Below are positions 21,017-39,015 of a DNA stretch of 64,000 nucleotides, piece after piece. The stretch is from contig NZ_CP109149.1 of NCBI RefSeq assembly GCF_035920345.1, positions 8,246,001 to 8,310,000 of the forward strand, in the 5' to 3' direction. Numbering within the stretch: position 1 is the stretch's first letter; the number at the start of each line of letters is the position of its first letter. The translations under genes were made by a program, and so were the position numbers. Under the pieces are notes generated by a model. It was not told the DNA's origin and ran no database searches. It worked only from the letters and a program-made list of their open reading frames with translations. Source of the stretch: Nocardia vinacea. GTDB taxonomy: Bacteria > Actinomycetota > Actinomycetes > Mycobacteriales > Mycobacteriaceae.

Positions 21017-21349
21017 TCAGCGGGGCAGCGCCGGAAGGCGTTGCAGCAGTGCGGGTGTCGCCTCGTCGACACTTGCCGCGAAATCGTCGTGCCTGGTAAC
21101 CCACCGCACCACGAACGGGCACACCGGTACGATCCGACGGCCGCTCGCCACCGTGTCCGCCAGCGCGTCGTGGATCAGAATGCTGCCCAATCCCCGTCCA
21201 CCGAACGCTGGATCGACCTCGGTCGCATAGAACACACGGTGCGTACCGTCATCGAAATACAGCTCCTCGCCGACGGTCGTGCCATCGAGTCGGATCTCGT
21301 ACGCATTGCGCGCGGGAACGCCGACTACCTCTACTTTCGGTTCGCTCAT
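21017..21349 (-). CDS. small GNAT acetyltransferase
   Basis: 110 aa from ATG 21349: MSEPKVEVVGVPARNAYEIR, then FYATEVDPAFGGRGLGSILI, with the acetyl-CoA pyrophosphate loop GGRGLGS. This compact single-domain form is the GNAT_acetyltr_2 (PF14542-like) type. Substrate unknown. The start lies inside a MIRU-like repeat, which also offers an in-frame ATG at 21409 that would add a 20-residue leader. Confidence 0.85.
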   Translation of the reverse strand: MSEPKVEVVGVPARNAYEIRLDGTTVGEELYFDDGTHRVFYATEVDPAFGGRGLGSILIHDALADTVASGRRIVPVCPFVVRWVTRHDDFAASVDEATPALLQRLPALPR

Positions 21350-21409
21350 GCCTGCGCCTCGCTGACGCTCCGGCACGAGCGAAGCTCTGTTTACTGTTCG
21401 CTCGCTCAT
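21347..21409 (-). repeat. MIRU-like interspersed repeat, degenerate copy
   Basis: Minus-strand element beginning ATGAGCGAGCGAAC and ending CAGCGAGGCGCAGGCATGA. It shares both ends with the copies at 24033-24113, 24558-24725 and 33453-33536, but the middle differs and the internal frame runs on into the acetyltransferase instead of stopping. Confidence 0.75.
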
Positions 21410-21450
21410 GCCCCCTGGAACGCATCCGTACCGCCGTTTATTGCAGACGA

Positions 21451-21488
21451 CGAAGGCCGCCCGCATCTTTCGATACGGGCGGCCTTCG
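21451..21488 (-). terminator. terminator of the sdh operon
   Basis: Perfect 13-bp stem (CGAAGGCCGCCCG / CGGGCGGCCTTCG) with a 12-base loop, 12 bp after the sdhB stop. There is no U-tract, common in actinobacteria. Confidence 0.8.
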
Positions 21489-21499
21489 GGTGCCTCGGG

Positions 21500-22270
21500 T
21501 CAGCGGGCGAACAGCAGTGCGCGCTTGACTTCCTGGATGGCCTTGGTGACCTCGATACCGCGGGGGCAGGCGTCGGTGCAGTTGAAGGTGGTGCGGCAGC
21601 GCCAGACACCTTCGACGTCGTTGAGGATGTCGAGGCGTTCGCGGGCGCCTTCGTCGCGGCTGTCGAAGATGAAGCGGTGTGCGTTCACGATCGCGGCCGG
21701 GCCGAAGTAGCTGCCGTCGCTCCAGTACACGGGGCAGGAGGTGGTGCAGCAGGCGCACAGGATGCACTTGGTGGTGTCGTCGAACCGGGCGCGGTCGGCC
21801 TGGCTCTGGATGCGCTCGCGGGTGGGCTCGTTACCCGAGGTGATCAGGTAGGGCTTCACGGCACGGAACGCGTCGAAGAACGGCTCCATGTTGACCACGA
21901 GGTCCTTCTCCACGGGCAGGCCGCGGATCGGCTCGACGGTGATGGTGAGGGTCTTGCCGCTCTTGGGCAGCATGTCCTTCATCAGCACCTTGCAGGCCAG
22001 CCGGTTCACGCCATTGATCCGCATGGCATCCGAACCACAGACACCGTGCGCGCAGGAGCGCCGGAAGGTGAGCGTGCCGTCCAGGTAGGACTTGATGTAG
22101 ATGAGCACGTTCAGGAAGCGGTCGGTCGTCAGGACCGGCACCTGGAAGGTCTCCCAATGCGCGCCCTTGTCGTCCTCCGGGTTGAACCGGGCGACCTTGA
22201 CGTCGACCATGACCGAGCCCTCGGGAACCGGTGCGGCCTTCTGCGGGGGTGTTTCGAGTACGGAAGTCAT
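21500..22270 (-). CDS. sdhB: succinate dehydrogenase iron-sulfur subunit
   Basis: 256 aa. Carries electrons from FAD to quinone in complex II. The [2Fe-2S] domain has SCAHGVCGSDAMRINGVNRL; the C-terminal ferredoxin-like domain has CILCACCTTSCP and CRTTFNCTDACPRG for the [4Fe-4S] and [3Fe-4S] clusters. The ATG at 22270 overlaps the sdhA stop. Last gene of sdhCDAB, followed by a hairpin terminator. Confidence 0.97.
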   Translation of the reverse strand: MTSVLETPPQKAAPVPEGSVMVDVKVARFNPEDDKGAHWETFQVPVLTTDRFLNVLIYIKSYLDGTLTFRRSCAHGVCGSDAMRINGVNRLACKVLMKDMLPKSGKTLTITVEPIRGLPVEKDLVVNMEPFFDAFRAVKPYLITSGNEPTRERIQSQADRARFDDTTKCILCACCTTSCPVYWSDGSYFGPAAIVNAHRFIFDSRDEGARERLDILNDVEGVWRCRTTFNCTDACPRGIEVTKAIQEVKRALLFAR

Positions 22271-24036
22271 CAGTACTTACGCTCCATCGGCTCGTAGCGG
22301 GTCTGCACCACCGGCTTGAAGTCGAGACGGATATCGGAGATGAGCTCCGCACCCTCCTTGTAGGCCATCGTGTGCCGCATGAAGTTGACGTCGTCGCGGT
22401 CCGGGTAGTCCTCGCGGGCGTGGCCGCCGCGCGATTCCTTGCGGTTGAGCGCGCCAACCACGGTGACCTCCGCCAGCTCCAGCAGGAAGCCCAGCTCGAC
22501 AGCCTCGAGCAGGTCGCTGTTGTAGCGCTTGCCCTTGTCCTGCACCGTGATTCGGGTGTAGCGGTCCTTGAGCGCGTGGATATCGGTGAGCGCCTGCTTG
22601 AGGGTGTCCTCGGTGCGGAACACCGCGGCGTTCATATCCATCGTGTACTGCAATTCGGTGCGGATATCCGCGACGCGCTCGTTGCCGTGATCCGACAGCA
22701 GCATGGCCAGCCAGTCCTGCACCATCTGCGCCGGGTTTTCCGGCATCTCGACGAACTCGGTGCGCTGGGCGTACTCCGCGGCGGCGATGCCGGAGCGGCG
22801 GCCGAAGACATTGATGTCGAGCAGCGAGTTGGTGCCGAGGCGGTTGGAGCCGTGCACCGAGACGCACGCGCACTCACCGGCGGCGTACAGGCCGGGCACC
22901 ACATCGGTGTTGTTGCGCAGCACCTCACCGCGGATCCGGGTCGGGATGCCACCCATCACGTAGTGACAGGTCGGCATGACCGGCACCAGTTCCTTCACCG
23001 GGTCCACACCCAGGTAGGTGCGCGCGAATTCGGTGATGTCGGGCAGCTTTTCCTCGAGCACGTCCTCGCCGAGGTGGGTCACGTCGATGTAGACGTAGTC
23101 CTTGTTCGGTCCGGCGCCGCGGCCCTCGAGCACCTCGAGCACCATCGAGCGGGCGACGATGTCACGCGGCGCGAGGTCCTTGATGGTGGGGGCGTAGCGC
23201 TCCATGAAGCGCTCACCGCTGGCGTTGCGCAGGATGCCGCCCTCACCGCGGACGGCCTCCGAGATCAGAATGCCCAGGCCGGCCAGGCCTGTCGGGTGGA
23301 ACTGGTGGAATTCCATATCCTCCAGCGGCAGACCCTTGCGGAACACGATCGCCATACCGTCACCGGTCAGCGTGTGCGCGTTCGAGGTGGTCTTGTACAT
23401 CCGGCCGGAACCGCCGGTGGCGAAGATGATCGACTTCGCGTGGAAGACATGCAGTTCGCCGGTGGCCAGCTCATAGGCGACCACACCGGTCGCGACCGGA
23501 CCACGGTCGGACTCGGACATGACCAGGTCGAGCACATAGAACTCGTTGAAGAACTCCACGTCGTGCTTGACGCAGTTCTGGTACAGCGTCTGCAGGATCA
23601 TGTGGCCGGTGCGGTCGGCGGCGTAGCACGCGCGGCGGACCGGGGCCTTGCCGTGATCGCGGGTGTGACCACCGAAGCGCCGCTGGTCGATCTTGCCCTC
23701 GGGCGTGCGGTTGAACGGCAGACCCATCTTCTCCAGGTCCATCACCGCGTCGATGGCCTCTTTGGCCATGATCTCCGCGGCGTCCTGGTCGACCAGGTAG
23801 TCACCACCCTTGACGGTGTCGAAGGTGTGCCATTCCCAGTTGTCTTCTTCGACATTGGCCAGTGCGGCGCACATGCCACCCTGTGCAGCACCGGTGTGGC
23901 TGCGGGTCGGGTAGAGCTTCGTCAGAACGGCGGTGCGGGCCCGGGGACCGGCCTCGATCGCCGCGCGCATACCGGCGCCACCGGCACCGACGATTACGAC
24001 GTCGTAGCGGTGCTCCTGAATCCGGGATTCACTCAT
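22270..24036 (-). CDS. sdhA: succinate dehydrogenase flavoprotein subunit
   Basis: 588 aa from ATG 24036. Rossmann motif VVIVGAGGAGMRAAIEA (residues 13-29), covalent-FAD histidine in TRSHTGAAQGG (H47), and the catalytic region HTRDHGKAPVRRACYAADRT with GEGGILRNASGERFMERYAP. Oxidises succinate to fumarate at the inner face of the membrane. The start codon overlaps the stop of a 26-codon repeat-borne frame rather than sitting behind a conventional leader. Sequence upstream of this ATG in frame is repeat shadow. Confidence 0.97.
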   Translation of the reverse strand: MSESRIQEHRYDVVIVGAGGAGMRAAIEAGPRARTAVLTKLYPTRSHTGAAQGGMCAALANVEEDNWEWHTFDTVKGGDYLVDQDAAEIMAKEAIDAVMDLEKMGLPFNRTPEGKIDQRRFGGHTRDHGKAPVRRACYAADRTGHMILQTLYQNCVKHDVEFFNEFYVLDLVMSESDRGPVATGVVAYELATGELHVFHAKSIIFATGGSGRMYKTTSNAHTLTGDGMAIVFRKGLPLEDMEFHQFHPTGLAGLGILISEAVRGEGGILRNASGERFMERYAPTIKDLAPRDIVARSMVLEVLEGRGAGPNKDYVYIDVTHLGEDVLEEKLPDITEFARTYLGVDPVKELVPVMPTCHYVMGGIPTRIRGEVLRNNTDVVPGLYAAGECACVSVHGSNRLGTNSLLDINVFGRRSGIAAAEYAQRTEFVEMPENPAQMVQDWLAMLLSDHGNERVADIRTELQYTMDMNAAVFRTEDTLKQALTDIHALKDRYTRITVQDKGKRYNSDLLEAVELGFLLELAEVTVVGALNRKESRGGHAREDYPDRDDVNFMRHTMAYKEGAELISDIRLDFKPVVQTRYEPMERKY

Positions 24037-24113
24037 GCCTCCACCTCGCTGCGCTCGGCTCCGGCATGTGTGAAACACGCTGTGTCGATGATTCGTTCGC
24101 TGCGCTCACTCAT
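24033..24113 (-). repeat. MIRU-like repeat carrying a 26-codon coupling frame (sdhD/sdhA)
   Basis: The minus strand begins 16 bp after the sdhD stop with ATG and reads MSERSERIIDTACFTHAGAE then RSEVEA, ending in TGA that overlaps the sdhA ATG (GCATGAG). The ends match the other copies; the middle is diverged. It would keep ribosomes moving through the junction into sdhA. Confidence 0.75.
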
Positions 24114-24129
24114 CGGAGTTCGCCTGTTC

Positions 24130-24561
24130 CTAACTGATGTTGGGGTCGAAGGTGAAGATGACGTAGGTGCCCACGCCCACGATCAGGATCATCGAAATGG
24201 CCAGCAGGGTGTTCAGCCAGAACCGGGTCGAGTCCTTGCGCGAGTAGTCCGCGATCACTGTGCGCAGGCCGTTGCCTCCGTGCAGCTGGGCCAGCCAGAG
24301 CATGCTCAGATCCCAGAACTGCCAGAACGGGCTGGACCAGCGGCCGGCCACGAAGGCGAAGTTCAGGCGCTTCACGCCGCCGTCGAGCAGCAGCATGATC
24401 GTCATGTGGCCGAGGACCAGCACGATCAGCAGCAGGCCGGAGAAGCGCATGAACAGCCACGCGTACTTCTCGAAGTTGTTGTTCGAGCGGGCACGCGGCG
24501 AGCGGGGGAGGTCCAGGCTCGCAGGCCGGTCGTAAGACTTACCGATAACAGGTGCGCTCAT
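24130..24561 (-). CDS. sdhD: succinate dehydrogenase membrane anchor, D subunit
   Basis: 143 aa with three membrane helices (about 33-58, 83-103, 116-138). NNNFEKYAWLFMRFSGLLLI followed by HMTIMLL supplies a possible haem-ligand His. The ATG at 24561 overlaps the stop of a repeat-borne short frame. Part of sdhCDAB complex II; binds quinone with SdhC. Confidence 0.93.
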   Translation of the reverse strand: MSAPVIGKSYDRPASLDLPRSPRARSNNNFEKYAWLFMRFSGLLLIVLVLGHMTIMLLLDGGVKRLNFAFVAGRWSSPFWQFWDLSMLWLAQLHGGNGLRTVIADYSRKDSTRFWLNTLLAISMILIVGVGTYVIFTFDPNIS

Positions 24562-24725
24562 GCCTGCGCCTCGCTGACGCTCGGCTCCGGCATGACCGCA
24601 CTGGCGGCTGTGTTCATGATTCGTTCGCTTAGCTCACTCATGGGTGCCTGCGCCTCGCTGACGCTCGGCTCCGGCATGACCGCACTGGCGGCTGTGTTCA
24701 TGATTCGTTCGCTTCGCTCACTCAT
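24558..24725 (-). repeat. tandem MIRU-like repeat with a 55-codon coupling frame (sdhC/sdhD)
   Basis: Two head-to-tail copies of an 84-bp unit fill the sdhC/sdhD junction. The minus-strand frame starts 5 bp after the sdhC stop and reads MSERSERIMNTAASAVMPEP then SVSEAQAP, repeats the same sequence with MSELSERIMNT, and ends with TGA overlapping the sdhD ATG. The two units differ at only a few bases. Unit length 84 keeps the frame open through any copy number. Confidence 0.85.
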
Positions 24726-24730
24726 GGGGA

Positions 24731-25129
24731 TCAGTGCTCCGTGAACAGGTAGAAGAACTGGCGGCCGACGGCCGGAACCACCAGCAGGAACCAGATGGCG
24801 AGAATCACCCAGAGCATCGTCTTCTGGTACTTCGGGCCCTTGCCCCAGAAGTCGACCAGGATCACGCGTACGCCATTGAGCGCGTGGAACAGCACGCAGA
24901 CGACAAGGCCCATCTCCATCAGCGCGACGAGGGGGTTCTTGTAGATCTCGATGGCGTGGTCGTAGGTATCGGGGCTGACCCGAACGAGTGCGGTGTCCAA
25001 GACGTGCACGAAGAGGAAGAAGAAGATGGTGACACCGGTGATCCGGTGCAGCGCCCAGGACCACATTCCGGGGTCGCCTCGGTACAGCGTCTTCCGCTTC
25101 GGCTGTGCCGGAGCTTCTATCGTGGTCAT
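24731..25129 (-). CDS. sdhC: succinate dehydrogenase cytochrome b subunit
   Basis: 132 aa from ATG 25129. GMWSWALHRITGVTIFFFLF is the SdhC signature helix 1; VHVLDTALVRV contains a probable haem-binding His; CVLFHALNGVRVILVDFW is the conserved second helix with its HALNG motif; a third helix ends the protein. First gene of the sdhCDAB operon. A 33-codon in-frame upstream extension is unlikely to be used. Confidence 0.94.
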   Translation of the reverse strand: MTTIEAPAQPKRKTLYRGDPGMWSWALHRITGVTIFFFLFVHVLDTALVRVSPDTYDHAIEIYKNPLVALMEMGLVVCVLFHALNGVRVILVDFWGKGPKYQKTMLWVILAIWFLLVVPAVGRQFFYLFTEH

Positions 25130-25650
25130 AGAGTGCGGTGCCTCCAACGTCGTTGATGGACCCGGTTGCAAGTCCGAGGCAGGCGACGTGGATGTAAATG
25201 CCCAGGTGGCTGCGCTTTGCTGCTCCAAATAGCTCGCGCGGGGCCCGCCGCCGGGAACCTGAACCGATCTGTTCTGGACTCTAATCCCCTCGCAATCGCG
25301 GAACTAATTCGGCAGGCCGTGCGTTGCGCTACAGTCGAGCGAGTTAGGTTTACCTTTCTTGATGTGTAAAGGGTTGCGCTGCTGCCCCTGCGCGGGCAAG
25401 TACGGCTGGGTTCCCGAGGGGCTGCCGATATCAGACTGCGACTGAAAAATCTTGTGCGACAAGGCAATTCAAGTTATGTGCAATGTCTATTTGTCGAACT
25501 AGCGGTTTCCGGTCGGCGCCGGGGCTCTCAGTTCGATGCGCCGAATTGTGAGCGTCGGCAATGTGGAAAATGTCTCATTCGACGGGCGATAACCTACTCA
25601 TCGGTAACAGAAAAGTATCGCAGATTCAGGTCCGCTACAGCCGAATCTCG
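25130..25650. promoter_or_regulatory. sdh operon upstream region
   Basis: 521 bp without a credible gene; holds the sdhCDAB promoter. TTAGGTTTACCTTT at 25344-25357 partly matches a DtxR/IdeR iron box (AGGT..ACCT arms) but lies about 215 bp from the sdhC start. No riboswitch or tRNA recognised. Confidence 0.4.
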
Positions 25651-27081
25651 CTACGACGTCCATCGGTGTCGTTCCAGCAACCGAGTCATGAGTTCGCGGT
25701 CCGCGGGACGCCCCGCGCCCGTCACGGCGACCAGGACCGTGCGTTCGGCGGTCCCGGCGTTGGGTGAACCCGAAGCCATCTGCGACCAGTGATAGCGCAC
25801 CTGAGCCTCGATGAAAGCGCGGTCGCTGCCCGCATCGCAGAGCAGCACCGCGCGATTGATCGGAAAGCGGTCGATCACCCGCTGCAGTTCGAACTGTGTT
25901 CCGGTGTTGGCCGGGACATATCCCGACAGATCGACCGCCACCAGGTCGACTTTCGCCAACAGCAGGTCGACCGCGCTCTTCCAGAAACTGCCGTGGCACA
26001 GCAGTGCGCGAACGGGGTAGCTACCCGCCGGATCGTTCACGCGTTCGGGCATATTAGTGATCCCGGTCAGCCGGTGCTTACCCGGCGGCAGCGGCTCGGA
26101 TCCGAATCCGGCGAGCGCGGTACGGAAGGTGCGCGGCGAAGCGGCGAACATGGTGCGTATCGCGTTGTCGGCCCGCGCTCGGGCAACCTCCGCCGGGCTG
26201 ACCGAACCCGAGCTACGCAGAATGTAGACATAGCCGAATTCACGCCACGCGCCGTGCAGGAAATTGCGGACTCTGGCCTGGTTCTCGAACAGTCGCAGAT
26301 AGGCGATCTTCAGCGGCGGTGATTTGAACACGTTGCGCGCGGCCGACACCACGGTCAGCCGGTAGTCGACCGACTTCGGTTTGACGAACTGCACTCGCAA
26401 CGGGGGAATCTCGGATGCGCGAACGTAGCGCGGATCGGGACCGAGCTGACTGAGCGCCGCGGCGTATGCCGGGTCACCGGACCACTTTTCGGCGATATAC
26501 GCCGCGTACCAGCGGCGCCAGCGTGGTAGCGCGAACGCGATGATGACCACCGATATGGCCGCGAGTACCGCGACCATCGGCACCACCGCCTCCGGAGCAT
26601 CGCGCAGCGTGCCATCGGGGTCCTCGGTCTGCACGCCGAACAGCAGCACCGCAATGATCAGACCGATCGGAATCACGACCCACCGCACCCGCCGCAGCGC
26701 CACCTGACGGTGCCCCCGGATCGCTCGCAACTCGTTCAGATGCGCCTCGAGCGGCGGCACCAAAAGCGCGGCGCGGTCGGGATGGCGGTCGACCTTGCGG
26801 CGCACCCGATGCGCGCTGTACCAGGCATGCCAGTTGCGCGCCCCTTCCGAGCCGCGTTCCCACAGCCCGAACCCGCACATGGGCGCCAGCAACAGCACGA
26901 ACTGACGCCATGTCGACAAGGGCACCTGCGGCATACCGCTGTACAGAAAATCCGGTGCCAAGAAGATCAGTCCGATGAGTGCCGCGGCCCACGGCAGCGC
27001 AAGTGCGGTGTTGCCGAGCCCGGACCACAGTGCCTTCGATTCCGTCGCGCGCACACGTTGTCGAAGGTCCTCCGCGGTCAT
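25651..27081 (-). CDS. four-helix membrane protein with cytosolic signalling-like domain
   Basis: 476 aa. Membrane helices at about 20-45, 58-76, 134-152 and 165-187. The cytosolic C-terminal half has two blocks: KIAYLRLFENQARVRNFLHG, then VDLVAVDLSGYVPANTGTQF followed by ELQRVIDRFPINRAVLLCDA, an alternating strand/helix fold reminiscent of TIR or flavodoxin-like sensor domains. ASGSPNAGTAERTVLVAVTG follows. I do not recognise a named family. It starts 7 bp after a two-helix SLATT/RipA-like gene, so they form one module. Membrane-associated sensor or effector is an inference. Confidence 0.6.
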   Translation of the reverse strand: MTAEDLRQRVRATESKALWSGLGNTALALPWAAALIGLIFLAPDFLYSGMPQVPLSTWRQFVLLLAPMCGFGLWERGSEGARNWHAWYSAHRVRRKVDRHPDRAALLVPPLEAHLNELRAIRGHRQVALRRVRWVVIPIGLIIAVLLFGVQTEDPDGTLRDAPEAVVPMVAVLAAISVVIIAFALPRWRRWYAAYIAEKWSGDPAYAAALSQLGPDPRYVRASEIPPLRVQFVKPKSVDYRLTVVSAARNVFKSPPLKIAYLRLFENQARVRNFLHGAWREFGYVYILRSSGSVSPAEVARARADNAIRTMFAASPRTFRTALAGFGSEPLPPGKHRLTGITNMPERVNDPAGSYPVRALLCHGSFWKSAVDLLLAKVDLVAVDLSGYVPANTGTQFELQRVIDRFPINRAVLLCDAGSDRAFIEAQVRYHWSQMASGSPNAGTAERTVLVAVTGAGRPADRELMTRLLERHRWTS

Positions 27082-27088
27082 GCCGACA

Positions 27089-27655
27089 TCACTTCAGGAC
27101 GGCGACGACATAGGTGATCACGTAGGTGAGCGCGAATATCACCGGCACCCACTGCTCGAGGTGGGTGAGCGGTCGGTAGAGACGCCGGTTTCGGCCCTGA
27201 CCGAGGGCGGTCCACTCCGCACGCCAATACGGTGACGCGGGCAATCGCTCCTCCAGCGCGCCGACGACCTGATATTTGGCCGCATTGAGCTGACGGTAGG
27301 ACCGCAGCAGGTAGTACCAGGCCCCGCACTGCACGACCAGCGCCACTGTCGGGCACACCAGCGTCCACACCGCGCGGCTCGGATGTAGTTGCAGCATCAC
27401 GCCGATGATCGTGAAGGCGCTGGTGTTGAGGGTGAGGAAGAAGCTGTTGGTCAGGCTGCGGCGGGCGCTGATCCGGTCGGCCATCTCGACATACAGCTTG
27501 TACTGTTCGAGCACCGCGTCCTGGTACCGGCCCCCATAGCTTTCTGGCGTGACGTGCGAATTCCACAGGCCGTCACTGATCGGGCTGGACACCGATTCCA
27601 CCTTCCGAAGGGGCCGACGGGAATTCGATGATATCCGAAATCTGTTGCCGCGCAT
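27089..27655 (-). CDS. SLATT/RipA-like two-helix membrane protein
   Basis: 188 aa from ATG 27655; a GTG inside (VESVSSPISDG) is an alternative start. The key region YKLYVEMADRISARRSLTNS then FFLTLNTSAFTIIGVMLQL is the hallmark of the SLATT/RipA-type octameric membrane protein group: a conserved amphipathic segment with R-x-S-x-R-R leading into the first helix. The second helix is at about 98-115, and a third hydrophobic stretch forms the C-terminus. SLATT proteins are predicted pore-forming effectors in nucleotide-signalled conflict systems. Directly followed by a membrane protein with a cytosolic alpha/beta domain. Confidence 0.65.
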   Translation of the reverse strand: MRGNRFRISSNSRRPLRKVESVSSPISDGLWNSHVTPESYGGRYQDAVLEQYKLYVEMADRISARRSLTNSFFLTLNTSAFTIIGVMLQLHPSRAVWTLVCPTVALVVQCGAWYYLLRSYRQLNAAKYQVVGALEERLPASPYWRAEWTALGQGRNRRLYRPLTHLEQWVPVIFALTYVITYVVAVLK

Positions 27656-27785
27656 CGGGATCTGGTCAGGCTCACGATCAGGCGTGGGTCGAGCTGGGCG
27701 ACATCGGGCAGGGACGGGAGAATTCGACCAGCCGAGTCGCCCGCCATACCGAAACCGCCCCTCGACCACGGAAGGTAGCGAACAC

Positions 27786-28181
27786 GTGGATATCGACTGG
27801 AAACTATTACGGACCAGCGCATATGAGGTGATGCAGCGGGCGTACGCGCCGTATTCTCGATTCCCGGTCGGGGCGGCCGGGCTGGTCGACGGCCGAGTGG
27901 TCGTCGGGTGCAACGTGGAGAATGTTTCCTATGGACTAGGTCTGTGCGCCGAATGCGTACTGGTCGGGAACCTATTCGCGGGCGGCGGTGGCCGGTTGCT
28001 CGCGCTCTCGGTCACCGATTCCCGCGGCGAAGTCCTGATGCCCTGTGGGCGTTGCCGACAGCTGCTCTACGAACACGGCGGGCCCGATCTTCTGGTGGAC
28101 CACAAGACCGGACCCGTGCCGCTACGAACCCTGTTGCCCGACGCCTTCGGACCCGACGATCTGGACGCAGGGCAGACCTAG
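27786..28181 (+). CDS. cdd: cytidine deaminase
   Basis: 131 aa from GTG 27786 with a GGAAGG ribosome site. Homotetramer-type zinc enzyme: CAE (C54, catalytic E56) and PCGRC (C87, C90). SRFPVGAAGLVDGRVVVGCN and VENVSYGL are the substrate-binding segments. Deaminates (deoxy)cytidine to (deoxy)uridine for pyrimidine salvage, feeding the deoA product downstream. In mycobacteria cdd-deoA-add form a block; here 700 bp of decayed small genes separate cdd from deoA. Confidence 0.95.
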   Translation: MDIDWKLLRTSAYEVMQRAYAPYSRFPVGAAGLVDGRVVVGCNVENVSYGLGLCAECVLVGNLFAGGGGRLLALSVTDSRGEVLMPCGRCRQLLYEHGGPDLLVDHKTGPVPLRTLLPDAFGPDDLDAGQT

Positions 28182-28276
28182 ATCGTCCTTTCGCCGAACG
28201 ATGCGTCGATTCCGGCTTCCGTCGGCATCTCCACATCGGTGAGCTGAATCGGCGGTAGTCCCATCCGTTCCGTCAT
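28178..28276 (-). CDS. 32-residue peptide frame downstream of decayed small genes
   Basis: ATG 28276 follows the stop of the upstream small gene by 8 bp, with the same GAGGGC leader the other copies have. Sequence MTERMGLPPIQLTDVEMPTE then AGIDASFGERTI. The IQLTDVEMPTEAGIDA part resembles the C-terminal ITVTTEAEIDAVLEEDC of the copies, so it may be a truncated third paralogue. Overlaps the cdd stop on the opposite strand. Weak support. Confidence 0.3.
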   Translation of the reverse strand: MTERMGLPPIQLTDVEMPTEAGIDASFGERTI

Positions 28277-28284
28277 GGTTGCCC

Positions 28285-28555
28285 TCAGCAGTCTTCTACG
28301 ATGACGGCGTCGACCTCATCGTCGGTCGGCATGCTGATCGCAGGTGTGTCGACCGGGCGGATCCCGAGGTGTTCGGCGATGAGCTTCACGTTTTGCCCCA
28401 CGCCGTTTGCATGTGCGGTGACACGTTCGGCCCAGATCTCGGGTCCGGTGACTCGGTCGCGTGAGTCCGAGCTGGGGTTCGCCGTAGCCTTCCTCGATAT
28501 CGGTGACTTGTGCTTCCAGCTTCGTCATGCGGCGATCGATGTGAGCGGATGTCAT
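28285..28555 (-). pseudogene. small coiled-coil protein, copy 1, frameshifted
   Basis: ATG 28555 reads MTSAHIDRRMTKLEAQVTDI then EEGYGEPQLGLTR; the C-terminal half continues in another frame as RVTGPEIWAERVTAHANGVG, KLIAEHLGIRPVDTPAISMP and DDEVDAVIVEDC, stop at 28285. Comparison with copy 2 shows one extra G in ctcGGtcgcg (28455-28456). Without it the gene encodes 89 aa: an N-terminal coiled coil and a C-terminal conserved E-D-C end. Family unknown. Confidence 0.65.
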
Positions 28556-28566
28556 GGTGGTCGCCC

Positions 28567-28805
28567 TCAGCAGTCTTCTTCGAGAACGGCGTCGATTTCG
28601 GCTTCGGTTGTGACCGTGATCTGCGAGATTGCATCGGTGGGGACGCCGAGGTGTTCGAGGATGCGACAGAAGCTTCGTTTTTGGACGATTTCGATTGCGG
28701 TGACTCGTCGCGTGAGCTCCAACTGGGACTCACGGGAAGCGCTCTTCGACCTCGCGGACGCGGGCCTCGAGATCCATCACACGGCGGTCCAGGTGTGTGC
28801 GTCAT
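28567..28805 (-). pseudogene. small coiled-coil protein, copy 2, frameshifted
   Basis: Tandem paralogue of the copy at 28285-28555. The N-half reads HLDRRVMDLEARVREVEERF then P-stop; the C-half in another frame reads RESQLELTRRVTAIEIVQKR, ILEHLGVPTDAISQ, TEAEIDAVLEEDC. The indel lies at the end of the coiled coil, a different place from copy 1, and the ATG region is also out of phase. So the two copies decayed independently. Confidence 0.6.
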
Positions 28806-28899
28806 TGCTCCCCAACATCGACTCGATGATGCGCAGAGGCTGTCGGAGGCCACCGACAAGTTCCAGGGGGCGAGTGTGTCACGTGCCAGACTTGCCGGT

Positions 28900-30186
28900 G
28901 TGACGGCAGTGGACGCGGTTTCGATCATTACGACCAAGCGGGACGGCGGGGAGCTGTCGGATGCGCAGATCGATTGGGTGGTGGATGGATTCACCAAGGG
29001 GGCGGTGGCCGACGAGCAGATGGCGGCCTTGGCGATGGCCATCGTGTGGCGGGGGATGACGCGACGGGAGACCGCGCGGTGGACGAATGCCATGATCGCG
29101 TCGGGTCGTCGGATGGACTTCACCGATCTGCCGCGGCCGACGGTGGACAAGCATTCGACCGGCGGGGTGGGGGACAAGATCACACTGCCGCTGGCGCCAT
29201 TGGTCGCGGCGTGTGGGGCCGTCGTGCCGCAGCTTTCCGGGCGCGGGTTGGGGCATACCGGCGGGACGCTGGACAAGCTGGAGGCGATCCCGGGATGGCG
29301 GGCCGACGTGCCGGTGGCGCAGATGCGGGAGATCCTGTCGGATCCCGGCATCGGCGCGGTGGTGTGCGCGGCGGGTGCTGATCTCGCCCCCGCCGATAAG
29401 CGGCTATACGCGTTGCGCGATGTCACCGGGACCGTCGAATCAATACCACTGATCGCCAGCTCGATCATGAGCAAGAAGATCGCGGAAGGGACCGCCGCGC
29501 TCGTACTCGATGTGAAGGTCGGCTCCGGAGCGTTCCTGAAAACTCTGGACGGTGCGCGCGAATTGGCAACGGCCATGGTCGAACTCGGTACCGATGCCGG
29601 GGTGCGGACGGTGGCATTGCTGACCGCGATGGACACTCCGCTCGGTCGCACCGCGGGCAATGCACTCGAGGTCGCCGAATCTGTGGAGGTGCTCGCGGGC
29701 GGTGGCCCCGCCGACATCGTCGAGTTGACGCTCACCCTTGCCCGCGAGATGGTCGCCCAGGCCGGACTCGATATCGACCCGGCCGACGCCCTCGCCGATG
29801 GTCGCGCAATGGACCATTGGCGCGCCATGATTCAGGCCCAGGGCGGCGATCCAGACGCGCCCCTGCCGCGCGCGAAGCACACCGAAATTATTCGGGCCGA
29901 ACGAGACGGTGTGCTCACCCGCCTCGACGCGATGGCCGTCGGCATCGCCACCTGGCGACTCGGCGCGGGGCGAGCCCGCCAGGGCGACCCCGTCCAATTC
30001 GGCGCAGGCATCGAAATGCACGCCAAGCCAGGCGATTCCGTAACCACAGGCGAACCCCTGCTCACCCTGCACACCGACACCCCGGAAGCCTTCTCCGGCG
30101 CCCTCGCCGCCCTCGAAAACTCCTTCACCATCGGAACCGCGCCCCCACCGCAACCCCCCTTGATCCTGGACCGGATCGCCCCCTGA
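28900..30186 (+). CDS. deoA: thymidine phosphorylase
   Basis: 428 aa from GTG 28900 (no strong ribosome site; GTG 28909 also possible). DAVSIITTKRDGGELSDAQI is the usual start of pyrimidine nucleoside phosphorylases; VDKHSTGGVGDKITLPLAPL is the phosphate-binding signature; VPQLSGRGLGHTGGTLDKLE completes the active site. Length fits E. coli DeoA (440). Converts thymidine or deoxyuridine plus phosphate to base and deoxyribose-1-phosphate. Works with neighbouring cdd, add, deoD and a phosphosugar mutase. Confidence 0.95.
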   Translation: MTAVDAVSIITTKRDGGELSDAQIDWVVDGFTKGAVADEQMAALAMAIVWRGMTRRETARWTNAMIASGRRMDFTDLPRPTVDKHSTGGVGDKITLPLAPLVAACGAVVPQLSGRGLGHTGGTLDKLEAIPGWRADVPVAQMREILSDPGIGAVVCAAGADLAPADKRLYALRDVTGTVESIPLIASSIMSKKIAEGTAALVLDVKVGSGAFLKTLDGARELATAMVELGTDAGVRTVALLTAMDTPLGRTAGNALEVAESVEVLAGGGPADIVELTLTLAREMVAQAGLDIDPADALADGRAMDHWRAMIQAQGGDPDAPLPRAKHTEIIRAERDGVLTRLDAMAVGIATWRLGAGRARQGDPVQFGAGIEMHAKPGDSVTTGEPLLTLHTDTPEAFSGALAALENSFTIGTAPPPQPPLILDRIAP

Positions 30187-30706
30187 CACCTCAGCCCGCC
30201 ACCGCACCCGAGTTCGCCCGGCGCGCGAGTTCGCCCGGCACCTGAGTTCGCCCGGCACCTGAGTTCGCCCGGCGCGCGATCTCACCTGCTCCGCATGGAC
30301 TCGCGCTGGTCCGCATGAACTCGGCTGCCATGCGCGGACTCGCGCTGTCCGCGCGAATCCATCCGGCCCGCATGAGCTCGCTCGTCGCCCTCCGATCAAC
30401 TGGCAACCCGCATGCGTGGCGCGAAAACTCTGTGCGCTGGTGTATGCCGTCCACTCATCGAACGACTGCTACACGTCGAGTATGAAGGCGAGTCGATCGC
30501 ACCGACGTGGTGGGTAAAAGGTTTGCGGCAAGCAGGCAGGAAACCGACCGCTACGTTAATTCTTGGCTGGTTAAACGGGTTTTCCGGTACTCGAGATGTG
30601 GCAATCGGCTACTCGAGCAGGGACATTGCGGGTTATGTCTCGGATGGGGGTGGCGGAGAGCGCAATCACAGCCGCATGAACGGGTCCGTGCGGCTAACGT
30701 GTGGTC
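30187..30706. other. intergenic region deoA/add
   Basis: 520 bp. The left part is repeat-derived (17-bp tandem repeat and its decayed extension to about 30400). The remainder has a 148-codon open frame from 30412, but its second half shadows add in another frame and the composition is unconvincing. It must contain the add promoter. Confidence 0.4.
30210..30277. repeat. 17-bp tandem repeat, four copies
   Basis: Four head-to-tail units of GAGTTCGCCCGGCRCST (period 17), at 30210, 30227, 30244 and 30261, just after deoA. Degenerate related runs (actcgcgctg, catgaactcgg) continue to about 30400. Period not divisible by 3, so non-coding. Confidence 0.85.
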
Positions 30707-31804
30707 ATGACAGGACCGATGCCTTTGACCCTTGCCTCGATCCGCCAAGCTCCCAAGGCGCTGCTGCACGATCATCTCGACGGTGGTCTGCGGCCCGCGA
30801 CGGTTTTGGAGCTCGCCGCCGATTGCGGTTACGACGACCTACCCGCCGACAATGAGACCGAGCTGGCGGCGTGGTTCCGCGATGCGGCCGACAGCGGCTC
30901 GCTCGAGCTCTATCTGGAAACCTTCGCGCACACCGTCGCGGTAATGCAGACCCCCGAGGGCCTGCGCCGCGTGGCTCGGGAATGTGCGGAAGACCTCGCC
31001 GCCGACAGCGTGGTCTATGCCGAAGTGCGCTTCGCTCCCGAACAGCATCTCGAGCGCGGCCTGACCCTGGACGAGGTGGTCGAGCACACCCTCGCCGGAT
31101 TCCGCGAGGGTGCCTCGGCCGCGGCCGAGGCCGGTCGCCCGATCGTGGTGATCTGCCTGCTCACCGCCATGCGGCATGCGGCCCGTTCGCGCGAGATCGC
31201 CGAACTCGCGGTGCGGTGGCGCGACCGTGGCGTCGGTGGTTTCGATATCGCGGGCGCGGAAGCGGGCTTCCCGCCCAGCCGTCACCTGGACGCCTTCGAA
31301 TACATGCGAGCCAATAGCGCGCATTTCACCATTCACGCGGGTGAGGCGTTCGGGCTGCCGTCCATCCACGAGGCGCTGGCGTTCTGCGGCTGCGATCGAC
31401 TCGGCCACGGTGTGCGGATCACCGACGACATCACCGTTCCCGGCGCGGTCGAGGACGCGCAACTCGGACTGGTCGCGAACTATGTGCGGGATATGCGAAT
31501 TCCGCTCGAGCTCTGTCCCTCGTCGAATGTGCAGACCGGCGCGGTCCCCTCACTCGACAAGCATCCGTTCGACCTGCTGGCGCGGCTGCGTTTCCGTGTC
31601 ACAGTCAATACCGACAACCGCCTGATGAGCGACACCAGCATGAGCCAGGAGATGCTCAAGCTGGTCGACACCTTCGGTTACGGCTGGAGCGACCTCGAAC
31701 GCTTCACCATCAACGCGATGAAGTCCGCGTTCATCCCGTTCCCCGAACGCCTGCGCATCATCGACGACATCATCAAGCCCGGTTACGCCGTCCTGCTCGG
31801 CTAG
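30707..31804 (+). CDS. add: adenosine deaminase
   Basis: 365 aa from ATG 30707 (GTG 30701 just upstream). Zinc TIM-barrel: [10 protein letters not shown] (H21, H23), HAGEAFG with metal His and catalytic Glu, [10 protein letters not shown] with catalytic His, and VTVNTDNR for the metal Asp. Hydrolyses adenosine or deoxyadenosine to inosine, which the purine nucleoside phosphorylase at 38073 can cleave. Ends 3 bp from a converging gene. Confidence 0.96.
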
Positions 31805-31807
31805 CCC

Positions 31808-33082
31808 CTACTTCTCCTGTATGAGCCTGGACTCGAAGTTGCGCTCCAGGTCCCGCCAGCTCTGGGCCTCCGCGGTGAACGGCGGGTTCGGGGCCAGGCG
31901 GGTCGGGTCCGGGTTCAGCAGGTAGGAGACGTACCAGCCGAGTGGGGTGGACTGCGCAAGCGCCTGCTCCACCGTGTCGTCGTCGGCGTAATCGGCTGCG
32001 TCGGTGAACAATTCGACCACCAGATCGAGCTGTTCGATATCGACCGCCTCCGGGCCCTCGCCCAGGTCGTCGGCGAGCCCGGGCAGCACGTAGACGTTCT
32101 CGTCGGTCACCTCGACCTCGAGCGAACCGTCGACGGCGGCGGTCTGTACATCGGTGTAGGTGCTCACCCGCGCCAGCTCGTGCTCATGGTCATCGGCCAG
32201 GTACCGGGCCAGCGCACGCTCGGAGCCGAATACGGTGATGGATCCGTCCTTGCCGAGGAAGATCGGCTCGTCATCGAGGTAGCAGCGCAGCGTGAAGTAG
32301 GTGCCGTCGGAGGTGACGATCTTGACCGGGTCGATGCCGACCTCGTGCCAGAACGACTCGTCTTCCTCGTCCTCCTCCTCGTCTTCTTCCTCGTCCTCGT
32401 CGTCCGCATCGAGGTCGACGGATTCGAACTCCTCGTCCTCCTCGCTGTCGGCCGCGTCATCGGCGTCGACGACGTTCTCCTCCGCAGCGAGCAGTTCGGC
32501 TTCAGCGACCGCGACCGCCTCGGCATCGACCTCAGGGGTCTGCACGACGGAGTCGATGGCGTCGAGGACATCGTCCCAGCCCTTGGCGATGGCGGCGCCG
32601 ATCTGATCCCACAGCTCCTCGCCGTCGCGCCCGACGAAGGCGCTCACGCCGCTGGCCAGCGCGCCCACCACCGGATGGGAGCCGAAGAACTTGGTCACTG
32701 TCTCCAGTTCGCACACCTCACCGATGTTGCGCACCATGCTGAGCGTGTCGTCGAGCTCGGCGATGGTGTCGACATCGGGATCGTTCGCGACCAGCTCCGG
32801 CACCCCGACCAGATCGAAGGTGAAGTTCTCCTCCGGCTCCAGTTCGACCGCCGACAGCCCGGCCACGACCTTCCACGCCGGATGGTCCACGAGATCGTTA
32901 TCGGAGCTGGTCCGGATGAATGCGGCCAGCTCCGCAACGGTCTCGAAACCGTAGAGGGAGTCCTCGTGTCCGAGGAACGCCTCCCACTCGTCATCACCGT
33001 CGCGCCAGCGCGGTGCCCACAGGGTGACGAGATCGCCGTCGGTCAGGCCGAGCTCGATCGGGACGATGTCTCCAGAAGCCAT
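31808..33082 (-). CDS. acidic conserved protein (Rv3311-like, often called primosomal protein)
   Basis: 424 aa. Two related alpha/beta halves (residues 1-125 and 245-345), each with a strand pattern such as LVTLWAPRWRDGDDEWEAFL and YFTLRCYLDDEPIFLGKDGS, joined by an extremely acidic linker with runs of Glu/Asp (about 210-243). No signal peptide. The function is unknown; the primosomal label in databases has no visible support here. Position between add and upp matches M. tuberculosis Rv3311. Confidence 0.75.
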   Translation of the reverse strand: MASGDIVPIELGLTDGDLVTLWAPRWRDGDDEWEAFLGHEDSLYGFETVAELAAFIRTSSDNDLVDHPAWKVVAGLSAVELEPEENFTFDLVGVPELVANDPDVDTIAELDDTLSMVRNIGEVCELETVTKFFGSHPVVGALASGVSAFVGRDGEELWDQIGAAIAKGWDDVLDAIDSVVQTPEVDAEAVAVAEAELLAAEENVVDADDAADSEEDEEFESVDLDADDEDEEEDEEEDEEDESFWHEVGIDPVKIVTSDGTYFTLRCYLDDEPIFLGKDGSITVFGSERALARYLADDHEHELARVSTYTDVQTAAVDGSLEVEVTDENVYVLPGLADDLGEGPEAVDIEQLDLVVELFTDAADYADDDTVEQALAQSTPLGWYVSYLLNPDPTRLAPNPPFTAEAQSWRDLERNFESRLIQEK

Positions 33083-33108
33083 GTGCGGAAGCCTATCGAC
33101 CTTCCGAG

Positions 33109-33456
33109 TCAGTGACTATCCGGCCCGCCCCCAACGCTTCCCCGGGCGCCCTCCGGCGCTACCACGAACGACTCGTTCAGTGTCGCAACGACCTTCGATC
33201 GCTGCGCGCCGGCGTCCTCGGCGGCCTGGCGACAGGCCCATATGATCAGCTGGCCGACCTCGGCGGGCGGCAGTGAGGTGACCGACTCCGACAGGCTCAG
33301 CGCGACCAGGGCACCGTCGCTGTTCACCTCGACGCTGACCGTGCCGTCCTCGGTCCGGAACCGGCCGTGCACCTGCTTGAGGCCGTACAGCGCGGCCTCG
33401 AGTGCTTCCAGTTTCGCCGTCGCGTTGGCGACCAACGCGTCCATCTCAGCACTCAT
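33109..33456 (-). CDS. YbaB/EbfC-family protein (EspL-like)
   Basis: 115 aa from ATG 33456. MSAEMDALVANATAKLEALE helix, then GTVSVEVNSDGALVALSLSE strands and a C-terminal helix, the YbaB nucleoid-protein fold. In ESX-1 loci the YbaB-like EspL occupies such positions near secreted WXG and EspB-type genes; here the NlpC/P60 and EspC-like genes lie upstream on the same strand. Start overlaps the stop of a MIRU-like short frame. Confidence 0.75.
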   Translation of the reverse strand: MSAEMDALVANATAKLEALEAALYGLKQVHGRFRTEDGTVSVEVNSDGALVALSLSESVTSLPPAEVGQLIIWACRQAAEDAGAQRSKVVATLNESFVVAPEGARGSVGGGPDSH

Positions 33457-33536
33457 GCCTGCGCCTCGCTGGCGCTCGGCTCCGGCATGAGCGCTGGAGC
33501 GCCTGTGTTCATGATTCGTTCGCTCCGCTCACTCAA
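33453..33536 (-). repeat. MIRU-like repeat with 27-codon frame between two genes
   Basis: Single 84-bp unit. The TTG start at 33536 overlaps the TGA stop of the upstream gene, and its TGA overlaps the YbaB ATG. It encodes MSERSERIMNTGAPALMPEP then SASEAQA. Same frame and ends as the sdhC/sdhD copies. Remnant of another copy (gtgagcggagcgaacc) sits at 33884-33903 before the upstream gene. Confidence 0.8.
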
Positions 33537-33883
33537 ACTGGCCTCATCCAGCTCGTCGGTCCCGTGTCCGCGTCATCGATCCGGTCCAGTTCGTCCACCG
33601 CGGCCTGGCGCGTCGGCAGGCCGAGCTTGTCCAGGATGTCGGCGGGCATACCCGCCTCGGCGAGCAGTTCGCGGCGGCGGGCTCGGGCGGCGACGGTGGA
33701 GCGCTTGGTCAGTCGCAGGATCTCGTCGGCCAGAGTCTGTGCGCCGTAACGGTATTCGCTGCGCTCGAACTTGATCTCGATCGGCATGCCCTGGTCGGTG
33801 GCACGGACCGAGATGCTGCCCGATCGGTTGGTGCTCGACGCCACCGTGACATTGGGTATCGGTGGGGTCTGGGGCTGGGACAT
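33533..33883 (-). CDS. small ESX-linked hypothetical protein
   Basis: 116 aa, soluble. MSQPQTPPIPNVTVASSTNR, then a strand pair (SISVRATDQGMPIEIKFERS) and a helical half with STVAARARRRELLAEAGMPA. The pattern of strands then helix resembles a divergent YbaB-type or mycobacterial DUF2694-like protein; not certain. Lies between the NlpC/P60 gene and the YbaB gene, same strand, within tens of bases of both. Confidence 0.6.
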   Translation of the reverse strand: MSQPQTPPIPNVTVASSTNRSGSISVRATDQGMPIEIKFERSEYRYGAQTLADEILRLTKRSTVAARARRRELLAEAGMPADILDKLGLPTRQAAVDELDRIDDADTGPTSWMRPV

Positions 33884-33903
33884 TATAGGTTCGCTCCGCT
33901 CAC

Positions 33904-35028
33904 TTATGAGGTCGGCCGGTAGAAGCCATAGAAGTTCATACCCATGTTGTCGGTCCGAACCGAGCTGATCTGGACCGGATTACCGGCCTCGACGAACTGC
34001 CCGTTGCCGACCACCATCGCGACGTGGCCATCCCACACTGCCAGATCGCCCGGCATCAGATCGCCCGGCGAAACCTGCATATGGCCGTTGCCCTGTTCCT
34101 GCGCCAGCCGGGGCAGTTCGACACCGGCCTCGCCGTACGCGTACTTGGTGAGACCACTGCAGTCCAGTCCGGAGCCGGGCGTATTGCCACCCCACACATA
34201 GGGTGTGCCGACCGCGCCGATGGCCGCCTTGACCGCCGTCGCCGCCTTCTCGTTCGGGGCTTCTACGACGCTGCCATCGGGCAGGGTGATCTTCACGCCC
34301 TTACCGGAGGTCGACGACTGCCCGGTCCCGGTCGTGGTGCTGGTACTCGGTTTGGAACTGGACGCTGTGCTCGCGGTCGTCGTGCTGGCTTTGCTCGCGG
34401 TGCTCATCAGGCTGCTGAGCATGCCGCCGGCGCCGCTCGCGACACTGCCCACCGTCGATGACAATTGGGAGGCACCCTGGGTGGCGGTGCCGACCGTGCT
34501 GGCGACATTGGACAGCGACGGCGTCGACGGCGCGGGAGTCAGCTCGTTCATCGACGCGGTCTGGGTATCGAGTTCGTTGCGTACACGGCCGACCACATTC
34601 AGCCCCTGACCGATGTGGTCGATCGCGGAACCGACGAGCACCGTCAGCCCCTCCGGGGTGGCCAGCGCCGGACCGAGACTGGTGGCCTGGTTCACGAACG
34701 ACTGGACGATCCCGTTCAGTTCCTTCTGGCCCGTTTCGACCTGGGCTGCAGCCTGATTCACGACGGTAGCCATATCGTTGCCGCGGTCGGAAATGCTGGC
34801 GGCCGAGGTCTGCACCCGCAGCGCCTTCGCGGTGACGGCATCGGCCGCCGCACCGTCCCATGCGTTGTTCACCTGGTTGATGCTGTTGCGGCCGACAGCG
34901 TGCACCTGGTCGACGGCGGTCGAGGTGGAGGTCAGTGCGTCGGCGGGCCCGCCAGTGGGCAGGACGCCGGTGCCGAAGCTGGAGAGCAGGTCCAGCAGTG
35001 GCTGGACCAGGGCGCTGACATCGATCAC
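33904..35028 (-). CDS. NlpC/P60 peptidoglycan hydrolase with WXG-like head
   Basis: 374 aa. Residues 1-160 are helical with AWDGAAADAV (W57-x-G59), an ESX-type module; 165-245 are Ser/Thr-rich linker; 262-374 are an NlpC/P60 endopeptidase with TPYVWGGNTPGSGLDCSGLT (nucleophile C290), PRLAQEQ, and WDGHVAMVVGNG (H335). No Sec signal, so export through a type VII system is likely. It would cut stem peptides in the cell wall, perhaps to let substrates or the apparatus through. Second gene of the cluster starting at 35350. Confidence 0.88.
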   Translation of the reverse strand: MIDVSALVQPLLDLLSSFGTGVLPTGGPADALTSTSTAVDQVHAVGRNSINQVNNAWDGAAADAVTAKALRVQTSAASISDRGNDMATVVNQAAAQVETGQKELNGIVQSFVNQATSLGPALATPEGLTVLVGSAIDHIGQGLNVVGRVRNELDTQTASMNELTPAPSTPSLSNVASTVGTATQGASQLSSTVGSVASGAGGMLSSLMSTASKASTTTASTASSSKPSTSTTTGTGQSSTSGKGVKITLPDGSVVEAPNEKAATAVKAAIGAVGTPYVWGGNTPGSGLDCSGLTKYAYGEAGVELPRLAQEQGNGHMQVSPGDLMPGDLAVWDGHVAMVVGNGQFVEAGNPVQISSVRTDNMGMNFYGFYRPTS

Positions 35029-35032: not shown

Positions 35033-35350
35033 TCACCCGTCCAGACCGGTGGCGTTCAGCCCGGCGGCATTGTTCAGGTCGGTTTCCTCGAGGACGACGG
35101 CGGAAGAAGCTGCCGCACCGCCCACACTCGCGAGCACCGCCGACAACTGACCGATCGAGGCGACATGCCCGGCATGGGCCGCAGCGTAGGCGGCCATGAA
35201 ATCGCCGCCGATCAAGCCCATTATGGGGCCGAGGAGAGTGGGATCGGCGGCCGCGGCGCTCACTCCTGCGGCGGCGAGATCACCCGACATAGTCGCGGCC
35301 GTCGCGCCGTAGGCGGTGATGCCCTCGGTGTCGGCCGACATCTTTCGCAT
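35033..35350 (-). CDS. ESX-type target protein (EspC-like)
   Basis: 105 aa from ATG 35350. [20 protein letters not shown] opens with the EspC-like short region, followed by a Gly/Ala-rich helical hairpin ([20 protein letters not shown]) and a Val/Ala-rich C-terminus. It lies 4 bp before the NlpC/P60 gene, implying co-expression and possibly co-secretion. Stronger N-terminal extension is not supported by a ribosome site. Confidence 0.65.
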
Positions 35351-38872: not shown

Positions 38873-39015
38873 GCCGCGCCTTCGGCGCGGCGTGTTCGCG
38901 GCCCCCGGGTGTCTCGCGTCCGAGCCGTCGAGACTCGCGACTTCGTCGCATGCGCTTCGACGGCTCGGACGCGAGACGGGCCGCGAACGGGTCGCTCGTA
39001 AGACTCGCTCCGTTG
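38873..39015. repeat. structured interspersed repeat, full copy A
   Basis: About 143 bp. Hairpin 1: GCCGCGCC-ttc-GGCGCGGC (38873-38891). A perfect 21-bp inverted repeat (38911-38931 with 38957-38977) encloses a second hairpin GCGAC-ttc-GTCGC (38937-38949). The tail reads GCTCGTAAGACTCGCTCCG. Copy B at 44617-44756 keeps the same structure with paired base changes. Confidence 0.85.

Follow-up and report, generated by a model that had tools for sequence, protein, structure and literature searches.

A short MIRU-like repeat with covarying hairpins lies at start codons in Nocardia vinacea

A short repeat recurs at gene starts, including those of sdhD and sdhA, in a stretch of 64,000 nucleotides from Nocardia vinacea (NCBI RefSeq assembly GCF_035920345.1, contig NZ_CP109149.1, positions 8,246,001 to 8,310,000 of the forward strand; hereafter the window). 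We consider it probable that this repeat is a non-autonomous mobile element resembling the mycobacterial interspersed repetitive unit (MIRU), which inserts at the tetranucleotide RTGA and is retained chiefly at RTGs that serve as start codons, oriented along transcription. This reading draws on properties read directly from the sequence, namely copy number (a lower bound), RTGA ends, start-codon location, orientation, frame, covarying hairpins and the presence of empty and filled sites among relatives.

Copy number and arrangement of the repeat

In the genome (10,358,337 bases, one contig), a 3'-arm pattern of the repeat allowing at most two mismatches gave 105 matches and its reversed-pattern control none, while a 5'-arm pattern gave 87 and its control 1. 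A profile built from 33 strict copies was then run on the window and on 100 stretches taken from around arm-pattern matches, with 100 of the 105 3'-arm places available for the choice. As 131 of its 136 matches had an E-value below 1e-3, the genome holds at least 131 copies, a lower bound in view of the stretches taken. A preliminary description of the window had proposed counting genome copies relative to start and stop codons, and the copies so counted were found mostly at start codons. They form 109 arrays (92 single, 13 double, 3 triple and 1 quadruple). Orientation showed no replichore bias, a possible trace of lagging-strand insertion, with 14 plus and 17 minus in one half and 36 plus and 42 minus in the other. 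The region between 2 and 3 Mb held no located copy, and 12 arrays lay within 0-3 Mb compared with 97 elsewhere.

The tandem copy-number variation (2-4 units in 17 of the 109 arrays) would fit passive spread, in which no dedicated enzyme acts and short RTGAGY repeats give rise to duplication, gene conversion and slippage. Unit number also differs at positions 5357214 and 9728529 between this genome and that of G009, a relative whose matched gene pieces are mostly 93-99% identical to our genome, and flanking RTGAGY repeats could explain precise loss. However, such a process leaves unexplained the single copies at unrelated loci with intact flanks, for example at dut and at a flavin reductase gene, and is in our view very improbable.

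Start codons, leader frame and coupling

Measured between its two start codons, the unit usually spans 77 or 80 nt, and it carries RTGA at each end; among the 87 two-ended copies, the spacing was 80 nt in 36 and 77 nt in 34. The length of 84 bp given in the preliminary description includes the shared RTGA, and it does hold as the period of the sdhC-sdhD tandem in the window. The same description had likened the units to MIRUs as dispersed repeats whose internal open reading frame (ORF) overlaps the downstream start. This was borne out, as the ORF from the left RTG stops exactly at the TGA overlapping the right RTG in 76 of the 87 copies. It had also allowed that copies might prove to be out of frame with their neighbours or to lie mostly outside gene junctions. 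Neither proved to be the case. The spacing is 2 mod 3, and the frame is kept, in 77 of the 87 copies. Moreover, a right [AGT]TGA was recognisable in 107 copies, and in 78 of them it leads straight into a coding ORF of 60 codons or more on the same strand, as called by a home-made codon-model score, which is a weak gene caller. Of the 29 other right ends, 16 lead to the next tandem unit and 13 to neither. Control RTGA sites from both strands of the same regions opened a coding ORF in 1094 of 4507 cases.

At the left end, the stop of a co-directional coding ORF was located within -250 to +40 in 80 of the 109 arrays. It was the TGA of the left NTGA in 34 arrays and lay 3 nt further upstream in 9. 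The remaining 29 arrays had no co-directional gene end detected within the same range. Because 78 of 107 right ends open a coding ORF while 29 of 109 arrays have no detected close upstream gene, the start codon is the common denominator of the insertion sites, with its RTGA as the target, and the operon junctions emphasised in the preliminary description are a frequent case. When arrays were counted once, copies were coupled in 38 of 41 cases near an upstream gene and in 22 of 30 cases elsewhere (Fisher p 0.044, post hoc).

At the sdhC-sdhD junction, the frame is kept in the copies of 17 out of 17 species, with a spacing of 80 in 15 and 71 in 2. Leader variability was taken from 16 aligned copies (15 loci and our genome, with two shorter copies excluded). 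Codon positions 1, 2 and 3 contained 11, 13 and 12 variable sites, respectively, and the ratio of nonsynonymous to synonymous polymorphism (pN/pS) was 0.60 compared with 0.15 for sdhD. Because the frame of the leader is kept but its amino acids hardly are, ribosome passage rather than a peptide product seems to be what is kept. The coupling peptide of the preliminary description holds as an ORF, but its amino acids look nearly unconstrained. A leader peptide (MSERSER...) that is itself a functional small protein would agree with the reading frame staying open as far as the overlapping TGA in 76 of 87 copies. Yet the distribution of variable sites and the pN/pS value tell against it, as does the fact that the residues common to the copies are, by eye, those encoded by the hairpin arms, and we find this explanation hardly credible.

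Hairpins and the start-codon guide

Two hairpins were delineated in alignment A1, which comprised 80 non-identical copies after identical copies and units shorter than 70 or longer than 84 nt had been dropped. The left hairpin pairs R1 with Y24 and T2 with A23, followed by a tandem GA, the column pairs 5-20 and 6-19, a further tandem GA, GC and a GNA or GNNA loop. The right hairpin reads CRTGNN, GGA, GCC, GA, GC and a loop, with the mirror half running to NNCRTG. Over both hairpins, 95.7% of the cells were paired compared with 88.2% in shuffled alignments, and two-sided changes occurred in 130 cells compared with 39.4 shuffled, although these shuffles do not remove the relatedness among copies. 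When the partner was slid by 1-3 columns as a control, pairing fell to 16-44%. A central stem was apparent by eye but poorly aligned, and was excluded from the model. Fold energy was dropped as support for the hairpins because its z-scores were weak. Mini-hairpins of the type d(GCGNAGC) are unusually stable in DNA.

An internal guide base in column 59 accompanies the first base of the right-end start codon (column 90). The combination was C-G in 40 copies, T-A in 39 and another in 1, so that 79 of 80 copies fit. The first bases of the left and right ends were G/G in 39 copies, A/A in 25, G/A in 14, A/G in 1 and T/A in 1. The excess of G/A over A/G would be explained by T-G wobble at the guide, and also by selection against changes that weaken a start codon.

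Filled and empty sites in relatives

Ten sites of our genome were chosen in a first round, and nine of them were resolved in G009 (the tenth, der, was left out; gene names were assigned by eye from translations). The sites at msrA, dut, echA and the flavin reductase gene were empty, and those at ribH, fbiB, trxB, a nudix gene and a tetR gene were filled. A second round matched 27 of 30 sites, 11 of them empty, 13 filled and 3 unclear. With both rounds pooled, 15 of the 33 resolved sites have no copy in G009. The dut, msrA and flavin reductase sites were also empty in the other Nocardia relatives viewed (9, 7 and 3, respectively), except for dut in relative G008. Because these other relatives are empty there too, gain in our lineage is the simpler reading for the three copies. 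At the dut start codon, G008 (locus L247) carries a separate insertion of the family, which suggests that some start codons may have been hit repeatedly.

Empty sites also locate the boundary of the element. In all three of those where the left and right ends in our genome differ at base 5 (flavin reductase, 6882601 and 9910449), base 5 of the right end equals the base of the relative, which places the boundary directly after RTGA. As for the first base of the start codon, the relative has G at dut, msrA and 8965564, where our genome has G on the left and A on the right. At 6882601, 8279453 and 1276489, the relative and our right end have A, and our left end has G or T. Insertion thus appears to have sometimes switched the start codon from GTG to ATG, since at the first three sites a G in the relative stands against an A at our right end.

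For the sdh genes, 80 loci of SdhD relatives were kept (79 Nocardia and 1 Rhodococcus; the nearest were N. pseudovaccinii, N. vinacea and N. anaemiae). Of these 80 loci, 16 hold a copy at sdhC-sdhD and 6 at sdhD-sdhA. On a quickly built sdh tree, 24 of whose forks are unsure, this requires at least 12 and 4 occupancy changes, respectively. The sdhC-sdhD copy of N. donostiensis (L172) is too decayed for the profile; it was scored as empty on the tree and included among the 17 frame-keeping copies.

These results bear on a host-maintained RNA device, in which hairpins of the mRNA would hide the start codon until the upstream ribosome arrives, and selection for coupling, not mobility, would maintain the covariation as well as the repeats. 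In RNA, just as in DNA, the start codon would be enclosed by the right hairpin. The unbroken frame in all 17 sdhC-sdhD copies and the more frequent coupling near an upstream gene, a post hoc comparison, would suit such a device, and so would the decayed copy of N. donostiensis, which keeps its ORF with its arm motifs largely gone by eye. However, nearly half of the resolved sites are empty in a close relative, at least 12 occupancy changes at one junction, counted on a quick tree with unsure forks, are labile for a conserved regulator, and 29 of the 109 arrays have no detected close upstream gene. We judge the RNA device to be unlikely.

Mobile copies may also leave traces in proteins. Among the 80 loci, SdhA is preceded by a full unit in 6, has an N-terminal extension beginning MSERSER or similar in 29 and has a short N-terminus in 45; the sorting was done by regular expression, and some extensions may have another origin. 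Five long ORFs of our genome have the left arm, in frame, as their beginning; judged by eye, their products include a dehydroquinate synthase, a ferredoxin reductase and an enzyme resembling cystathionine gamma-synthase. Some copies have thus apparently become N-terminal protein tails.

Distribution in Nocardia and other Actinomycetes

The covariance model matched 110 of 118 Nocardia genomes; about 38 candidates were scored in each, so per-genome match numbers are minima. In the order, 120 of 298 genomes and 28 of 76 genera were matched with 15 candidates scored per genome, and in the class 28 of 246 genomes and 14 of 103 genera with 18 scored. Only 1 of at least 34 genomes of a sibling genus (g8) gave a match (E 2.3e-5). 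We took this genus as Mycobacterium from its many PE-family matches, a soft label because the PE control also matched E. coli. The repeat may therefore belong to another sequence family than the MIRUs, as the preliminary description had said, as far as model matches tell; no MIRU sequence was aligned.

We viewed 42 copies from outside Nocardia (22 from the order and 20 from the wider class), picked among the best matches, at least 10 of which share one junction. Both ends carried [AGT]TGA in 40 of the 42. The spacing was 2 mod 3 in 20 of 22 copies from the order and 17 of 18 from the wider class, or in 35 of 38 distinct copies. The right-end hexamer varies between groups and the guide follows it: over 39 distinct copies the mean pairing was 5.38 of 6 positions compared with 4.96 shuffled, higher than in all 1000 shuffles.

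In another family of the order, ten genomes (L288, L292, L294, L296-L298, L303, L307, L308 and L310) carry the unit at one common junction, with GGATCCGCT followed by ATGAGT. By eye, this junction lies between two ABC-transporter permease genes, and the Nocardia copy at 6882601 is found at a similar one.

Search for an enzyme that moves the repeat

According to PMC6006769, the target tetranucleotide of IS200/IS605 elements lies beside the left end, and a guide at a hairpin foot pairs with the tetranucleotide that closes the right end. The Nocardia repeat is similar in having hairpins near both ends on one strand, a tetranucleotide at each end and a guide at a hairpin foot. It also shares with repetitive extragenic palindromic (REP) sequences and REPINs, associated with the transposase TnpA-REP (RAYT), a short, high-copy, hairpin-forming and non-autonomous nature. 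A repeat derived from REP or IS200/IS605 sequences and moved by a resident Y1 (HUH) transposase would be in line with this end geometry. Pfam family PF01797 (Y1_Tnp), searched for RAYT-type transposases, detected two stop-free genes in our genome; these IS200-like transposase genes (L111 and L112) have 164 codons each and near-equal scores.

However, PF01797 was found in only 20 of the 118 Nocardia genomes, unlinked to copy number, and 24 of the 29 copy-rich genomes lack it. A Y1 transposase as the general mover was rejected on these grounds. The L111 locus, the one of the two that was read, has no ends like those of the repeat by eye. In contrast to IS200/IS605, the unit contains no transposase gene, 98 of 118 genomes have no Y1 match, and the left target lies inside the left hairpin instead of pairing with a guide at a separate hairpin foot. 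In contrast to the REP/RAYT system, whose family PF01797 is missing from those 98 genomes, insertion is in frame at start codons and the hairpin foot is CRTG, not the GTAG or GTGG of canonical REPs. Movement by a resident Y1 enzyme is thus quite improbable. An autonomous long version was not seen among the five left arms lacking a right arm that were translated, which open long ORFs and were taken as N-terminal fusions; other partial matches were not followed.

The repeat resembles a miniature inverted-repeat transposable element (MITE) as a short, non-autonomous, dispersed element. It differs in that no inverted repeat joins the unit ends in three window copies, the long one found being the right hairpin, and in that a 4-nt RTGA stands on either side instead of a longer target duplication.

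Copies in the window

The window contains five related units and a weak remnant, all on the minus strand, in the regions sdhC-sdhD, sdhD-sdhA, 3' of sdhB and 5' of a YbaB-family gene (Table 1). The left-end 11-mer ATGAGTGAGCG occurs 7 times with at most one mismatch compared with 1.66 expected, and none of 100 shuffles reached 7. Six of these matches are unit ends, and the match at 35257 is not a recognised copy. Together with the model E-values, this enrichment confirms the copies of the preliminary description in position, in strand and in running along transcription. The window copies were scored unfiltered with the covariance model; three of the five (24558, 24033 and 33453) sit in its own alignment, so their E-values are partly by construction.

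Table 1. Units of the repeat, their hairpins and their host genes in the window
Feature	Position	Strand	Evidence or remark
Second tandem unit, sdhC-sdhD junction	24558..24641	-	E 4.5e-20; in model alignment
First tandem unit, sdhC-sdhD junction	24642..24725	-	E 3.4e-16 (match 24643-24725)
Left hairpin of unit 24558-24641, left start codon included	24619..24641	-	Covariation over 80 copies; coordinates projected from alignment A1; pattern RT-GA-NN-GA-GC-loop-GC-GA-NN-GA-AY
Right hairpin of unit 24558-24641, CATGCC ... GGCATG	24559..24594	-	Covariation; also detected as inverted repeat; terminal start codon pairs with internal guide
77-nt-type unit, sdhD-sdhA junction	24033..24113	-	E 1.4e-18; in model alignment; 26-codon ORF
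Unit 5' of YbaB-family gene	33453..33536	-	E 7.5e-20; in model alignment
Shortened unit, fused in frame to N-terminus of GNAT acetyltransferase	21347..21409	-	E 1.1e-7
Weak remnant of left arm, after NlpC/P60 gene stop	33884..33907	-	E 0.024 (covariance model) and 0.1 (profile)
sdhC, upstream host gene	24731..25129	-	Pfam Sdh_cyt
sdhD, host gene, start codon is unit end	24130..24561	-	Pfam Sdh_cyt
sdhA, host gene	22270..24036	-	Pfam FAD_binding_2 and Succ_DH_flav_C
YbaB/EbfC-family host gene	33109..33456	-	Pfam

In the second tandem unit, the terminal ATGA (24561-24558) is both the start of sdhD and the stop of the unit ORF. The first unit has an altered 3' end, ...GGCACCC, and continues in frame into the second, so that the two form one 55-codon ORF (24558-24725). 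The terminal ATGA of the sdhD-sdhA unit is the start of sdhA. The stop of sdhD lies 16 nt before the unit start at 24113, and that of sdhC 5 nt before the start at 24725. The preliminary description had every copy overlapping its neighbours. This holds on both sides for the unit 5' of the YbaB-family gene, whose TTGA overlaps the preceding stop and whose terminal ATGA is the YbaB start, exactly as described; its site is empty in G009. The copies at 24033 and 24558 overlap the downstream ATG only. The shortened unit does read in frame into the acetyltransferase gene, but has no terminal TGA and begins 90 nt past the sdhB stop. That the remnant belongs to the repeat family is plausible but weakly indicated.

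A search of the window against Rfam gave three matches below the gathering score, at 32890-32955, and none over the repeats, so no known RNA family was recognised. Another intergenic repeat, a long palindrome of different sequence (CGGAGCGAGTCTTACGAGCGAC...), has two copies at 38933-39012 and 44676-44753, with about 90 bases downstream, which surfaced as weak model matches (E 3e-4 and 4e-4). At 30204-30355, just past an ORF resembling thymidine phosphorylase by eye, lie short tandem repeats rich in GC, with units of 17 and 20 bp.

Discussion

The following course of events would account for the repeat as a mobile element. A unit ending in its own RTGA would insert at an RTGA tetranucleotide. 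One RTG, placed past the old ribosome-binding site or over the preceding stop, would start a leader ORF, in most cases 26 or 27 codons long. The TGA of the leader would overlap the second RTG, so that the original gene restarts there. We infer that ribosomes translate the leader and reach the downstream gene by coupled re-initiation. Because everything from codon 2 onward would be native, the repeats appear able to spread without changing the neighbouring proteins. An enzyme may recognise the hairpins in single-stranded DNA, and the internal guide may read the right-end RTGA in the manner of IS200/IS605. Besides targeting, purifying selection would presumably clear copies elsewhere.

Several observations weigh against this account. 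No mover was found, and PF01797, present in only 20 of 118 genomes, occurs in 5 of the 29 genomes with at least 30 model matches and in 15 of the 89 others. The frame is broken in 10 of 87 copies, 13 of 107 right ends are followed by neither a coding ORF nor a further unit, and shared ancestry weakens all frame and pairing counts. In 16 of 80 copies, the outermost pair of the left hairpin (columns 1-24) does not match, only 58% of the central-stem cells are paired, and the fold energies of six sequences are ordinary (z -2.2 to +0.9). Among six informative empty sites, the first base that matches the relative is on the left in three and on the right in three. At ribH and trxB, filled in G009, our left base is G, although ATG is the start in most other relatives. 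At empty sites 6181486 and 9910449, RTGA is missing from the exact position in the relative, and the flanks at 9114145 and 1276489 differ by 2 and 5 nt.

A bolder version, which we put forward tentatively, would see actinobacteria-wide start-codon transposons in these repeats. They would be single-stranded DNA hairpin elements served by a non-Y1 enzyme, with a guide base reading RTGA; a guide T would tolerate A or G, and a guide C only G. Insertion would be silent for both proteins, could swap GTG for ATG, and could later be followed by decay into new N-terminal tails.

We know of no accepted enzyme for the spread of MIRUs. In 1997, Supply reportedly described MIRU insertion at DTGA. The Nocardia repeat is MIRU-like in being short (spacing of 77 or 80 nt), dispersed between genes and oriented with them, in its internal ORF whose stop overlaps the downstream start, and in its variable tandem copy number. 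MIRUs themselves are presented in PMC2734929 as repeats of 40-100 bp with variable copy number. The Nocardia repeat also behaves like the MIRUs of a 2025 review, which mentions start-codon insertion, -4 coupling and little effect on the gene (PMC12548453). The two seem to differ in sequence family, as far as model matches tell. A further difference is that, for the Nocardia repeat, we document hairpins that covary, guide bases for the start codon, sites that are empty in a relative, and a range of several families. A literature search covering few subscription papers found no prior description of it.

The Nocardia repeat gives handles on the spread of MIRUs: at least 131 copies, pairs of empty and filled sites, a defined target, and hairpins that covary with the start codon. 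Since RTGA is a stop and a start at once, the repeat also shows a way for an insertion to be neutral to the gene on either side. With element-like extensions at 29 of 80 SdhA loci, the repeat also suggests a route by which proteins gain N-terminal tails.

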